A stretch of DNA of 51,654 nt, from NCBI GenBank assembly GCA_025355995.1, contig JANXYQ010000015.1, positions 1 to 51,654 of the forward strand, written 5' to 3'. The position numbers were made by a program, and so were the translations under genes. The notes under the pieces are model-generated. The model worked only from the letters and a program-made list of their open reading frames with translations, was not told where the DNA came from and searched no databases. The DNA is from Spirochaetaceae bacterium (GTDB lineage: Bacteria; Spirochaetota; Spirochaetia; Treponematales; Rectinemataceae). Below are positions 14,216 to 50,445 of this stretch, in pieces. Every line of letters starts with the position of its first letter. Position 1 is the first letter of the stretch.

Positions 14216-14249
14216 GCCGTCCTCCTTAGTGCATCGAGATCATTCTAGC

Positions 14250-30405: not shown

Positions 30406-30442
30406 AAAAAAAGGCCCCTGGGCAAGGAGGCGGAGCCCAGGG
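30406..30442 (-). terminator. Intrinsic terminator of the small RNA
   Basis: On the minus strand there is an 8-bp perfect stem with an 11-nt loop, then GCC and seven T. On the plus strand no T-run follows the hairpin, so it specifically ends minus-strand transcription and not the deacetylase transcript. Confidence 0.85.
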
Positions 30443-30525
30443 ACCAGTGCCGCTCGCTCTAACTCGGGGAGGGAAACTCATCGAGCTCGAGTGATTGAAA
30501 GTGTCCGAGTCGTCCTCTCGAACAC
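30406..30525 (-). ncRNA. Candidate small RNA with anti-Shine-Dalgarno terminator loop
   Basis: A minus-strand transcript of about 120 nt, running from about 30525 to about 30406, is bounded by a strong promoter (30532-30560) and an intrinsic terminator. A 5' hairpin pairs 30525-30517 with 30509-30501 (9 bp, one G-U) around the loop AGGACGA. A pyrimidine run, UUUCCCUCCCC (30476-30466), lies in the middle. The 3' terminator stem is CCCUGGGC/GCCCAGGG (30442-30435 with 30423-30416), followed by seven U. Its loop, UCCGCCUCCUU, contains CCUCCUU, the complement of AAGGAGG. C-rich loops of this kind pair with ribosome-binding sites in known regulatory RNAs (established); action here is inferred. I do not recognise a known RNA family, including 6S and SRP RNA. 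Confidence 0.7.
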
Positions 30526-30531
30526 ACAGAT

Positions 30532-30560
30532 ATAATATCCAAATACTCTATAATCGTCAA
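30532..30560 (-). promoter_or_regulatory. Sigma70 promoter of the small RNA
   Basis: TTGACG (30560-30555), a 17-bp spacer and TATTAT (30537-30532) on the minus strand match the consensus at 5 of 6 positions in each box with ideal spacing. It is one of the strongest promoters in the window, and no protein gene lies downstream of it on that strand. Confidence 0.8.
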
Positions 30561-30597: not shown

Positions 30598-30624
30598 TTG
30601 CTCAAATCTCAAAACTACTATACT
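30598..30624 (+). promoter_or_regulatory. Possible dnaE promoter close to the start codon
   Basis: TTGCTC (30598-30603) and TATACT (30619-30624) have a 15-bp spacer. The -10 ends one base before the first ATG (30626), so the transcript would begin at or very near the start codon and be leaderless or nearly so. No ribosome-binding site is visible, which agrees. The match is modest. Confidence 0.35.
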
Positions 30625-30625
30625 A

Positions 30626-33600
30626 ATGTGTAGTATGAATGCCGATGCTCTTCCGCTTCTCGGCGCCCGGTCCTGGCACTCCCTCATGGACGGAGCGAGG
30701 TCTCCCGCGGATCTCGCGGAGGAGGCGGCGCGGAGGAACTGGAGCGCCCTCGCCCTCGCGGATCAGAACAATCTGTACGCGCTGCCGGAGCTGGTCGACG
30801 CCGCGGCCGAGGCGGGAATCAAGCCCCTCGCGGCGGCCTCCCTGGAGACAGGCGGCCTCTCCCTGCGCGCCTACTGCCTGGATCGCCGCGGCTATTCCCG
30901 GCTCTGCGCCCTCCTCACGCGGATCCTCGCCGTCGAAGTGCCGCGCCGGCGGCTGCGGCTGCCGCCCGACGTGCTGGAGGAGGAGGAGAGGGCGGGAGGC
31001 GAGTGGGAGGCGAACGCGGCCGACGAGTTGCCGCTGGGCTTTCCCTACGCGATCAGGCGGGCGTCGCGGCCGTCTTCTCACGGGGCGTTGGCGCGTTCCG
31101 CCTCGCGTCCCGCCTCGCGTTCCGCCTCGCGCCCCGCGCGGGCCGACTACGACCTCCTCGCCGACCTCCGGGAGGGCGGCTGGGAAGGCCTCGCCCTCTC
31201 GACCTCGGACCCGCGGCTCCTCGCCGCCCTCGCAGGCGAGGGCCTCGCCCCGCGGGACCTCCCCCCGCGAGGAAGGCTCTACGCCGCGCTCCCCCTGGGC
31301 TCTCCCCAGGAGGGGCCGGCCCGCGCGGGGCGGGAGCTGGGTCTTCCCCTCCTCGCGGAGCATCCCGCGCGCTTCGTCTCGGGCGAGGACGGGGAGCTCT
31401 GGCGCCTCGCGCGGGCGATCGAGGAGCGCCGAAGCCTCGCCTACCTGGAGCGCGAGGCGCGGCCCGATCCGCCGGGGGCGTCGATCGTCTCGGCCGAGCG
31501 CGCGGCCGCCCTCCTTTCGGCCTTTCCGGAGGCCCTCGAGGCCGCCCGCTCCCTCGCCGAGGAGGCCGCCTCGGCCGCCTCCTTCTTCGCGGAAGTGCCC
31601 GTCTTCCCCGCCTACCGCGGCCTGGCCGAGGAGGAGTCCTTCTATCTCCTGCGGTCCCTCTGCGCGGAAGGCGCGAGGCGCCGCTACGGCCCTCGCGCGC
31701 TGGAGGGGCCGCGCCCGCGCGCCACGCTTCGCGAGCGTCTCGAGCGCGAGCTCCGCATCATCCGCGACAAGGGTTTCTCGGCCTATTTCCTCGTCGTGCG
31801 CGACATCGTCGCCCGCTGCCCCCGCACCTGCGGCCGGGGCAGCGCCGCCTCGAGCCTGGTCTCCTACCTCCTGGGGCTCACCCACGTCGATCCCCTCGAG
31901 CACGACCTCTTCTTCGAGCGCTTCCTCAACGAGGGGCGCAGGGATCCGCCCGACATCGACATCGACTTCCCCTGGGACGAGAGGCGGGCGGTCCTCGCCT
32001 CGGTCTTCGCCGACTACGCGGGCAGGGCGGCGATGGTCGCCGACCACTGCGGCTTCTCCGAGCGCTCTTCCCTGCGCGAGTCGGCGATAGCCCTCGGGAT
32101 GGGCGAGGAGGACATCCGGGGCGCGGGTCGGGCGCTGCGCCTAGGCGCCCTCGATGCCCTCCCGCCCGAGCTTCTGCGCCTCGCGCGGATGGTCAGGGGC
32201 ATGCCCCGCTACATCGGCACCCACCCCGGAGGCATCGTCATCACGCCCGGGCCGATCACCGACTACTGCCACGTCCAGCTCTCGCCCGCCGGCCTGCCCG
32301 TCCTCGGCTGGGAAAAGGACGGGACCGAGCGCGCGGGGCTCGTCAAGATCGACATCCTGGGCAACCGCTCCCTGGCGGTGCTCCGCGACTGCCTCGAGTC
32401 CGTGAACGAGGAACGCGACGCCGAGGCGCCCCTGCCCTGGGATTTTAAGGGGGCCGACGAGGATTCCGAGACCCGGAGCCTCGTCGAGTCGGGGCGGAGC
32501 GTGGGCATCTTCTATATAGAGTCGCCCGCGACGAGGCAGCTCCTCCTCAAGATGGGCACGGTCGACTACCGGCGCCTCGTCGCGGCGAGCTCCATAATCA
32601 GGCCGGCCGCGAACAAGTGGATCAACGAGTACGTGCGCCGGCTGCGGGGCGGGAGTTGGCGCCGCCTGCCGGAGAGCGTCGAGGAGACGCTGAAGGAGAC
32701 CTACGGCATCATGGTCTACCAGGAGGACGTCTCCCGCGTGGCCATGGCGGCCGCGGGCTTCGACGCCGTCCTCGCCGACGGCCTGCGCAAGGTCCTCACC
32801 AAGAAACGCAAGGGAGGCGCCCTCGAGGACTTCAAGGGCCGCTTCCTCGCGGGCTGCGCGGACTCCGGGATATGCGAGCGCGATTCGCTCGAGCTCTGGG
32901 ACATGATGCTCTCCTTCGACGGCTATTCCTTCTGCAAGGCCCATTCGGCCTCCTACGCCCTCGTGTCCTACCGCCTCGCCTGGATGAAGGCCCACCACCC
33001 CGCGATCTTCATGGCCTCGGTCATCAACAACGGCGGGGGCTTCTACGGCGTCCAGGCCTACGTCGGCGAGGCCCGCCGCCTGGGCCTGTCCATCCTGCCG
33101 CCGCACGTCAACGCGAGCGACGCCGGCTACAAGGTGGAGGGCGAGGCGCTTCGGGTGGGATTATCCCAGCTGCAGGGCCTCTCGCGGTCCACCCTCGAGC
33201 GCATCATCGCCGAGCGGGAAAGGCTCGCCGAGGCGGGGGGCGGGGGCTTCCCCGGCCTGGAGGAATTCGAGGCCCTGGTCTCGCCCAAGCTCCCGGAGCT
33301 GCGCGCCCTCGTGCGCTCGGGCTGCCTCGACGGTCTTCCCTCCCGGGCCGGAGGGCCTTCCCTTGGGAGGCCCCAGGCCCTCTGGGCCCTGCACCGCGCC
33401 CGCGAGCGCGCCGCCGCGGGCCTCCCCCGGGGGCCAGAGCTCATCGAGGACGACTGGGAGCCGCCCGCGTGGATAAAGGACTACCCGCCCCCCGCGCGGC
33501 TCGCGGACGAGGCGAGGCTCCTGGGCCTCGTCCTGGCCGGCGTGCCCGCGGCCCTCTTCGCCGGAAGGGCCGTCCTCGTGGCGGGCCGCAGGGGCCTGCC

Positions 33601-33895
33601 TCCGCCGGTGAGGTCGTCCAGCCTCGCCGCCGCCGCATCCGAACGCCTCTGCCTCGCGGGCACGATAGTCGCCGGCAAGGAAGTGGGGACCAAGCACGGC
33701 GAGAGCATGGCCTTCTACACCTTCGAGGACGAGGACGGGCTCTTCGAGACGGTCTTTTTCCCTAAAGCCTATGCGAGCGCCCTGCCGACACTAGAGGGGA
33801 ATAGGGCGGTCCTCATGGTGGGTAGGGCGCGGAGCGAATACGGCGCCGTCTCGCTCCACGTCGAGGAGGCGTTCGGCCTGAACCGCGCGGATTAA
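30626..33895 (+). CDS. dnaE: DNA polymerase III alpha subunit paralogue with degenerate PHP domain
   Basis: A 1089-residue C-family polymerase. The N-terminal PHP-like domain reads GARSWHSLMDG and LADQNNLYAL, so the usual metal ligands (HxH and DH) are largely lost. The palm carries the catalytic Asp motif PPDIDIDF (443-447), and a third Asp, D576, lies in VKIDILGN. Helix-hairpin-helix and a C-terminal OB domain follow. It is shorter than E. coli DnaE (about 1160). A low-complexity Ser/Arg/Pro insert lies at about residues 155-172. It may be an accessory or translesion-type polymerase rather than the main replicase. ATG 30635 is an alternative start. The following TIR-like gene has its ribosome-binding site across this stop. 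Confidence 0.88.
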   Translation: MCSMNADALPLLGARSWHSLMDGARSPADLAEEAARRNWSALALADQNNLYALPELVDAAAEAGIKPLAAASLETGGLSLRAYCLDRRGYSRLCALLTRILAVEVPRRRLRLPPDVLEEEERAGGEWEANAADELPLGFPYAIRRASRPSSHGALARSASRPASRSASRPARADYDLLADLREGGWEGLALSTSDPRLLAALAGEGLAPRDLPPRGRLYAALPLGSPQEGPARAGRELGLPLLAEHPARFVSGEDGELWRLARAIEERRSLAYLEREARPDPPGASIVSAERAAALLSAFPEALEAARSLAEEAASAASFFAEVPVFPAYRGLAEEESFYLLRSLCAEGARRRYGPRALEGPRPRATLRERLERELRIIRDKGFSAYFLVVRDIVARCPRTCGRGSAASSLVSYLLGLTHVDPLEHDLFFERFLNEGRRDPPDIDIDFPWDERRAVLASVFADYAGRAAMVADHCGFSERSSLRESAIALGMGEEDIRGAGRALRLGALDALPPELLRLARMVRGMPRYIGTHPGGIVITPGPITDYCHVQLSPAGLPVLGWEKDGTERAGLVKIDILGNRSLAVLRDCLESVNEERDAEAPLPWDFKGADEDSETRSLVESGRSVGIFYIESPATRQLLLKMGTVDYRRLVAASSIIRPAANKWINEYVRRLRGGSWRRLPESVEETLKETYGIMVYQEDVSRVAMAAAGFDAVLADGLRKVLTKKRKGGALEDFKGRFLAGCADSGICERDSLELWDMMLSFDGYSFCKAHSASYALVSYRLAWMKAHHPAIFMASVINNGGGFYGVQAYVGEARRLGLSILPPHVNASDAGYKVEGEALRVGLSQLQGLSRSTLERIIAERERLAEAGGGGFPGLEEFEALVSPKLPELRALVRSGCLDGLPSRAGGPSLGRPQALWALHRARERAAAGLPRGPELIEDDWEPPAWIKDYPPPARLADEARLLGLVLAGVPAALFAGRAVLVAGRRGLPPPVRSSSLAAAASERLCLAGTIVAGKEVGTKHGESMAFYTFEDEDGLFETVFFPKAYASALPTLEGNRAVLMVGRARSEYGAVSLHVEEAFGLNRAD
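31093..31140 (+). repeat. 12-bp tandem repeat inside the polymerase gene
   Basis: Four in-frame units resemble GCGTTCCGCCTC (31093-31104, 31105-31116, 31117-31128 and a diverged 31129-31140). They encode a repeated Arg-Ser-Ala-Ser / Arg-Pro-Ala-Ser pattern in the linker after the PHP-like domain. The unit keeps the frame, so copy-number change would only alter linker length. Confidence 0.8.
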
Positions 33896-33904
33896 GGAGG
33901 ATGC

Positions 33905-34807
33905 TTGACGGTAGCGGTGCTCGCGTCCCCCGAGGACGGGCGATCCCTCCACGATATCCTGTCGGCCCTCGCCGGGGCGGGGGTGGACGCCTATGGCCTC
34001 AAGATCCACGCGAACTGGGAATCCATCGCGCCGGAGAAGCTCGTCGCGCGCATCGAGAAGGCGAGCCACTTCCTCGCCCTGGCGTCGGCGACGAGCGTCG
34101 GCGCGTCGTGGTTCACCTTCGCCCTGGGCTACGGCTACAGCCGCGGGACGAATTTCTCCCTCTTCCGCTTCGATCCCTCGAACGCCTTCCCGCGCTACCT
34201 CTCGGGGCTCCTCGTCTTCGACGGTCTCGAGGAGCTGACGACCTATTACCGGGTCGAGAGGCGGGAGTGGCTCGTCCAGGACGAGCGCCGCGCGTCGCGA
34301 AGCGCCCTCCTGGAGATGGGCATATCCGTGCACAACGACTCCCTCGCGCAATGCGCGCGCGATGGGGACACGAAGGCGGTCGAGCTCTTCATGAAGGCCG
34401 GCTTCCCGCCCGACTCCCGGGACAAGTACGGCGTGCCCCTGCTCAGCCTCGCCGCTCGCGGGAAGCATCGGGCGGTGGCCGAGATCCTCCTCGAGCGCGG
34501 CGCCCGCATAGACCTGCAGAGCGAGGACAGGGGTTACTCGCCCCTCATGGACGCGGCCCAGGCCGGGTCGGCCGACCTCGTCGCCCTCTTCCTGGGAAAG
34601 GGAGCGAGTCCCGACCTGACCAGCAAGGACGGCCAGACCGCCCTCATAGTGGCCGTGGGCCGCAACGACGCCGAGATCGCGGGCCTTCTCGTCTCCGGGG
34701 GCGCGGACCCGGAGCTCTCCGACAAGCTCGGCCTCTCGGCCCGCAAGTACGCGGCGCTCTTCAAGAATCCCGACATCCTCTCCCTCTTCGGCCCCTCCGC
34801 CTCCTAA
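33905..34807 (+). CDS. TIR-like domain plus ankyrin repeats
   Basis: A 300-residue protein. Residues 1-120 look like a TIR-type fold: VAVLASPEDGRSLHDILSAL, ARIEKASHFLALASATSVGAS, and SLFRFDPSN. NADase TIR domains have a catalytic Glu four residues after a conserved Trp; here the stretch is SWFTFALGYG, without that Glu. Residues about 140-295 are ankyrin repeats (DGDTKAVELFMKAGFPPDSRDKYG, then three more). It probably acts as a binding or signalling protein and not as an NADase. The start is TTG at 33905, set by AAGGAGG at 33894-33900, which overlaps the dnaE stop; the ATG at 33901 is out of frame. Confidence 0.75.
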   Translation: MTVAVLASPEDGRSLHDILSALAGAGVDAYGLKIHANWESIAPEKLVARIEKASHFLALASATSVGASWFTFALGYGYSRGTNFSLFRFDPSNAFPRYLSGLLVFDGLEELTTYYRVERREWLVQDERRASRSALLEMGISVHNDSLAQCARDGDTKAVELFMKAGFPPDSRDKYGVPLLSLAARGKHRAVAEILLERGARIDLQSEDRGYSPLMDAAQAGSADLVALFLGKGASPDLTSKDGQTALIVAVGRNDAEIAGLLVSGGADPELSDKLGLSARKYAALFKNPDILSLFGPSAS

Positions 34808-50403: not shown

Positions 50404-50445
50404 GCCCGAATGGCGGCGACCCCAACTCTCTCAAGGAGGCCTCTT

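Follow-up and report, generated by a model that had tools for sequence, protein, structure and literature searches.

Candidate anti-Shine-Dalgarno small RNAs with a seed in the terminator loop form a set in spirochaetes

Small RNAs whose loops mimic the anti-Shine-Dalgarno sequence have been described in two bacterial lineages, the actinobacterial 6C and the alphaproteobacterial NfeR1. In the mycobacterial B11/6C, C-rich loops pair with ribosome-binding sites and bring about repression, and in B11 either loop suffices (PMC10470900). Moreover, according to the title of a paper cited in that work, binding by the M. tuberculosis 6C RNA is independent of RNA chaperones, and a rise of about two-fold on DNA damage is cited for C. 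glutamicum 6C in PMC6789036. The alpha-r14/NfeR1 RNA (cuckoo) is composed of three hairpins, in which ultraconserved unpaired anti-Shine-Dalgarno motifs are carried on highly variable stems, and it is Hfq-independent (PMC10746234).

The locus described here was found in a stretch of 51,654 nt (hereafter the window) from Spirochaetaceae bacterium, assembly GCA_025355995.1, contig JANXYQ010000015.1, and all coordinates are window positions. An earlier note on this DNA had proposed that the minus strand encodes, divergently from dnaE, an undescribed small RNA with a near-consensus sigma70 promoter, a 9-bp 5′ hairpin, a C-rich run and an intrinsic terminator with CCUCCUU in its loop, no protein gene lying between promoter and terminator. 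The features of the locus are as follows.

30532..30560, minus strand: sigma70-like promoter, with -35 TTGACG at 30560-30555, a spacer of 17 bp and -10 TATTAT at 30537-30532
30406..30525, minus strand: predicted small RNA of about 120 nt, its 5′ end inferred from the promoter and its 3′ end from the terminator
30501..30525, minus strand: H1, 5′ hairpin of 9 bp, with loop AGGACGA at 30516-30510, invariant in five of five copies
30457..30491, minus strand: H2, second hairpin, whose loop holds CCUCCC at 30472-30467, complementary to GGGAGG
30413..30445, minus strand: H3, intrinsic terminator hairpin of 11 bp, with loop UCCGCCUCCUU
30424..30430, minus strand: CCUCCUU, the 16S rRNA anti-Shine-Dalgarno sequence; the plus strand reads AAGGAGG
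30406..30412, minus strand: U7 tract of the terminator, facing the minus strand only
30616..30635, plus strand: imperfect palindrome TACTATACTAATGTGTAGTA across the DnaE-family gene start, located outside the small RNA, about 56 bp upstream of its -35 element
30626..33895, plus strand: gene for a DnaE-family DNA polymerase III alpha subunit, the divergent neighbour, assigned by domain and profile matches
33905..34807, plus strand: gene for a TIR-like/ankyrin-repeat protein following the DnaE-family gene, with a TIR-like N-terminus and ankyrin repeats

The architecture proposed in the earlier note was borne out, with one refinement. The promoter TTGACG-17-TATTAT matches the consensus at 10 of 12 positions, and the 1.3-kb region around it contains three promoter-like sites, against 0.1 expected in shuffles. 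The predicted RNA would start about 7 bases 3′ of the -10 element, and H1 begins at the 5′ end expected from the promoter. A Pfam search of the interval found no supported protein, in agreement with the claim that no protein gene intervenes, and a 69-aa minus-strand open reading frame across the promoter and the 5′ part of the small RNA has no Pfam match. The neighbour at 30626..33895 confirms the divergent arrangement with a dnaE-family gene. When folded, the RNA from 30525 to 30406 reaches -52.7 kcal/mol (z = -3.65), a value equalled by none of 200 shuffles, and the predicted structure consists of the 9-bp 5′ hairpin, a second hairpin with UUUCCCUCCCC and the 11-bp terminator, followed by U7. 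Specifically, the terminator CCUCCUU at 30430-30424 is predicted to be exposed, with a probability of being unpaired of 0.99 in the window copy and of 0.68-0.99 in relatives. The stretch UUUCCCUCCCC is present as well; as a refinement, the CCUCCC of H2 has a mean unpaired probability of 0.50, and the CUC of the CCCUCCCC stretch is predicted to be paired. Pairing between the AGGACGA loop and the C-rich loops was rejected as weak (-4.4 and -2.9 kcal/mol). The description of the RNA as new also stands, since no Rfam family matched in the window at the gathering score or in 18 loci at E<=1, and searches of open-licence papers found no description of such RNAs in spirochaetes.

Like 6C/B11, the window RNA carries C-rich loops on stable stems, and the DNA-damage response of 6C, as cited in the literature above, provides a loose parallel to the DnaE-family neighbour. 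In contrast to 6C/B11, the spirochaete RNA comes from another phylum, has no match to Rfam 6C, uses CCUCCUU/CCUCCC seeds instead of C-runs, and is characterized by a main seed in the terminator loop and a first hairpin with AGGACGA. With NfeR1 it shares conserved loops carried by stems whose sequences differ greatly, whereas the motif of NfeR1, CCUCCUCCC, occurs in all three of its hairpins and the loops of the window RNA are AGGACGA, CCUCCC and CCUCCUU; here too an Rfam match is lacking. The nearest layout to NfeR1 is that of the copies in two other genomes of the set, G399 and G522 (L205 and L208), in which both hairpins show the seed, as ACCUCCUUU. Finally, a GGA in a hairpin loop and the presence of CsrA in the genomes recall CsrB/RsmY, but the window RNA has only one such loop GGA, and most of the set has lost it. 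By analogy, the best model is that the spirochaete RNA would work like 6C/B11 and NfeR1 while belonging to neither.

Four further genomes of the family contain homologues of the window RNA, with 84, 78, 71 and 81% DNA identity, the last value referring to a partial match. All five copies keep the promoter (with the elements TTGAC, TTAT.GAG and TT.GATAT in common), the loop AGGACGA, the CCUCCC in the loop of H2 and the terminator loop CCUCCU(U), while their stems differ by compensatory pairs. In the helices registered by hand, a count independent of any model-fitted alignment, two-sided pair changes affect 4 of 9 pairs in H1, 7 of 8 in H2 and 6 of 10 in H3. The model-fitted alignment, which is biased towards structure in a way that the hand-registered count is not, has 93.6% of cells pairing and two-sided changes in 11 of 32 pairs, and the covariation score was reached by none of 500 shuffles. 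Individual copies show deviations: that of G003 (L107) has an additional UCCCCUCCCC within a helix of different sequence, and the a-type copy of G005 reads CCUCCUG instead of CCUCCUU and has no U-tract. Two-sided stem changes combined with constant loops point to selection on an RNA with fixed loops. In other words, conservation of the hairpins and of the C-rich loop in relatives, on which the earlier note had staked its proposal, was found in all five copies, with covarying stems and invariant loops, and the locus is almost certainly a real, selected small RNA gene.

The DnaE-family gene is the divergent neighbour in four of the five copies (the window copy and those of three relatives), and the copy of G005 is directly divergent from the TIR-ankyrin gene. 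The copies of family f4 (L026/L110 and L027/L147) retain promoter, terminator loop and DnaE-family neighbour and lack the AGGACGA hairpin. The DnaE-family protein itself does not reach the curated cut-off of either NCBIfam model, replicative or error-prone; its nearest relatives beyond spirochaetes are found in Nitrospira, Desulfuromonadales and Acidobacteria genomes. The TIR-ankyrin protein resembles the PADLOC candidate defence model PDC-M72A, and its gene is syntenic with the small RNA in families f1 and f4, at times without the polymerase gene; in some relatives it is the immediate divergent neighbour of the small RNA. The palindrome TACTATACTAATGTGTAGTA at the start of the DnaE-family gene has 1 match against 0 expected, and versions of it such as TACTATACATTTGTATAGTA precede the same gene in several relatives (L022-L032); from its sequence it resembles an operator, perhaps one for the DNA-damage regulator LexA.

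The RNA of the earlier note does not stand alone: several paralogues occur per genome, and they belong to a set that extends across the phylum. Covariance and pattern searches of the order and the phylum turned up further copies, frequently two or three to a genome. A covariance model built from four copies (R1, cut-off E<=0.1) found matches in 65 of the 394 genomes of the order, and a terminator with CCUCCU(U) in its loop closes 48 of the 49 extracted matches, the exception being a second, weak match in L146. Four weak R1 matches in the Treponemataceae-like family f3 turned out to be tRNA genes with promoter and terminator and were discarded. In the 4.5-Mb genome of the window there are three copies (the window RNA, C122:43090-43219 and C11:66221-66325), and beyond these three no other CCTCCTT site in a hairpin terminator was present in this genome; together with the conservation in other genomes, this excludes chance. 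A pattern scan detected CCGGGTTT..CACCTCCTTTTCCCGG or close variants in more than 60 genomes of family f5, usually once per genome.

With a terminator-only model, R2, the set could be traced into further families of the phylum, and CCUCCUU was seen in matches from G571, G399, G440, G522, G511, G607, G610, G613, G586, G625, G630 and two f3 genomes. The same model gave matches in 18 of 30 non-spirochaete genomes (the best at 1.6e-7), with no CCUCCUU in the eight best outgroup loci, and some f3 matches were likewise devoid of CCUCCUU. On this outgroup and f3 evidence, matches weaker than about 1e-7 include generic terminators and were not accepted as such; since R2 alone is unspecific, membership was assigned to terminators in which CCUCCUU was checked in the sequence. 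A tandem 24-bp repeat array in a 1.1-Mb genome (G039:C1:498847 onward) also matches the terminator portion of the query many times and is unrelated to the set. Over 28 copies, the terminator stem varies and covaries around a constant CCUCCUU loop, and this motif, kept in essentially all inspected copies, is the most constant feature of the set. The window copy combines it with the other common features, that is, an own promoter just upstream and no intervening protein gene; an own promoter is also found in most other copies and is not obvious in a few.

Subtypes of the set can be distinguished by their genomic context. In families f1 and f4, type a, to which the window RNA belongs, is linked to the DnaE/TIR-ankyrin locus. 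NIF3 and lspA genes are found near type b, an acyltransferase gene adjoins type c, NMT1/DUF1850 genes are near type d, and the f5 copies have AMP-binding, LuxS or acylphosphatase genes in their vicinity. Such different contexts indicate independent small RNA genes and not the leader of one gene. The type c copies often have a further CCUCCUU or CCUCC outside the terminator, and their promoter-like pattern consists of GTAACC followed, after about 13-17 bp, by GTTGTTA, GTTATA or similar. The GTAACC-type promoter occurs at L133, L134, L135, L137, L139, L222, L223, L225 and L226, in several families including the Treponema-like f3, and we take the GTAACC/GTTGTTA pattern to be reminiscent of promoters of extracytoplasmic-function sigma factors. 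Within family f1, the GGACGA element is found in types a, b and c; its variants AGGACGA, TGGACGA and GGGACGA occupy 5′ hairpin loops or 5′ parts (window 30516-30510; L133, L135, L139, L143-L145). Distant subtypes have only promoter and terminator in common, and they may descend from one ancestor or have arisen by convergence.

The constant loop corresponds to the mRNA-recognising part of the ribosome. The 16S tail of the order is GGATCACCTCCTT, and the f5 loop has UCACCUCCUUU, in some copies AUCACCUCCUUU, in common with the 16S tail GGATCACCTCCTTTC. Hairpin loops that copy this part of the ribosome suggest that genes are probably switched off by covering their ribosome-binding sites. In such a mechanism, the RNA would be transcribed from its sigma70-like promoter as a stand-alone trans-acting regulator, and its rigid stems would present CCUCCUU, and in part CCUCCC, as single strands; these would pair with the AAGGAGG or GGGAGG Shine-Dalgarno sequences in part of the mRNAs and, by competing with the 30S subunit, repress translation. 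The CCUCCUU:AAGGAGG pairing is worth -9.5 kcal/mol. A search of nine genomes, including four drafts, did not detect Hfq (PF17209), and the RNA would act without it. In addition, the different promoters of the paralogues would allow different signals to be conveyed through one seed. We consider it probable, from the sequences compared, that the RNA acts by pairing with Shine-Dalgarno sequences, and an Hfq-independent anti-Shine-Dalgarno RNA is the model that we favour with the same degree of confidence.

In the genome, AAGGAGG lies 4-9 bases before an ATG 149 times, against 69 for the reversed control pattern, which argues for a limited target set, with about 80 genes above background, and not all genes, carrying the full complement. 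Still, a seed present before this many genes could entail poor specificity. The three AAGGAGG sites of the earlier note (14221-14227, 33894-33900 and 50433-50439) all exist. The motif is, however, not kept at the loci of seven relatives for the carboxyltransferase 5S gene, nor at those of twelve relatives for the TIR-ankyrin gene, and no target conserved between species emerged from the two candidate sites compared. Accordingly, the general reading of the note gains support from the conserved anti-Shine-Dalgarno loops, and its specific targets do not for the two candidates tested. A further point against the pairing model is that it assigns no function to the GGACGA loop, which is strongly conserved.

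Other explanations were considered for the conserved elements. The terminator loop may imitate the 16S 3′ end and so act as a decoy for a protein that binds or processes the tail (such as Era, S1 or a ribonuclease), so that ribosome maturation or initiation would be regulated by titration and not by mRNA pairing. The f5 loop, copying 11-12 nt of the tail, (A)UCACCUCCUUU, beyond the Shine-Dalgarno complement, would fit such a function, and Era recognises GAUCACCUCC. However, CCUCCUU alone is kept in the window's family and in other Spirochaetia, where the UCA preceding it in the rRNA is not, and the extra anti-Shine-Dalgarno motifs of several copies (CCUCCC, a second CCUCCUU) fit mRNA pairing; a decoy of the tail is on these grounds unlikely. 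The AGGACGA hairpin loop, for its part, could make the RNA chiefly a Csr-type decoy that sequesters CsrA, the C-rich loops being secondary, given that the motif is invariant in a 7-nt loop on a 9-bp stem and that csrA is present in 10 of 10 genomes tested. But CsrB/RsmY-type RNAs carry many GGA motifs and the present RNA a single loop GGA per molecule, two c-type copies have GACG(A) without GGA (ATGACGA and GAAGACG), and the f4 and f5 copies lose the AGGACGA loop yet keep CCUCCUU, all of which makes sequestration of CsrA as the main function rather improbable.

It is also very unlikely that the locus only terminates transcription, or serves as an attenuator-type leader that regulates an adjacent gene, its C-rich loop having arisen by chance. 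A convergent polysaccharide deacetylase gene does have its stop codon 15 nt from the terminator end, and in a few relatives a co-directional gene lies closely downstream; against this, the U-tract faces the minus strand only, downstream genes vary between relatives and subtypes, the loop is invariant while the stem changes, and the RNA has a conserved promoter of its own. As for a small peptide encoded by the transcript in place of an RNA function, three of the five homologues have an ATG within H2, but it is missing in G004 and G005, its frame in the window has no stop before the terminator, and the covariation tracks helices and not codons; coding was rejected on the open frame and the missing ATG, and is scarcely credible.

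To our knowledge, hardly any regulatory RNA has been mapped in the Treponema-Spirochaeta branch, and we know of no anti-Shine-Dalgarno RNA set previously reported in this phylum. What is new, if the pairing model holds, is such a set in spirochaetes, its seed being placed in the terminator loop and copying the 16S tail, the mode of action being already known from 6C/B11 and NfeR1. More tentatively, many spirochaetes of this branch, lacking Hfq, might run a chaperone-free post-transcriptional network, in which several small RNAs share a terminator-loop seed taken from the 16S tail and respond to different promoters (sigma70-like or GTAACC/GTTGTTA); these ribosome-tail mimics would set translation for the whole class of strong Shine-Dalgarno mRNAs and might, in addition, titrate factors binding to the 16S 3′ end. 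Spirochaetes would be a third lineage with loops that mimic the anti-Shine-Dalgarno sequence, with a strikingly close copy of the rRNA tail, and the selectivity of an RNA whose seed is this common becomes a question open to test. Moreover, a common and easily recognised seed in the terminator loop offers a handle on regulation in much of the phylum, including cultured species.
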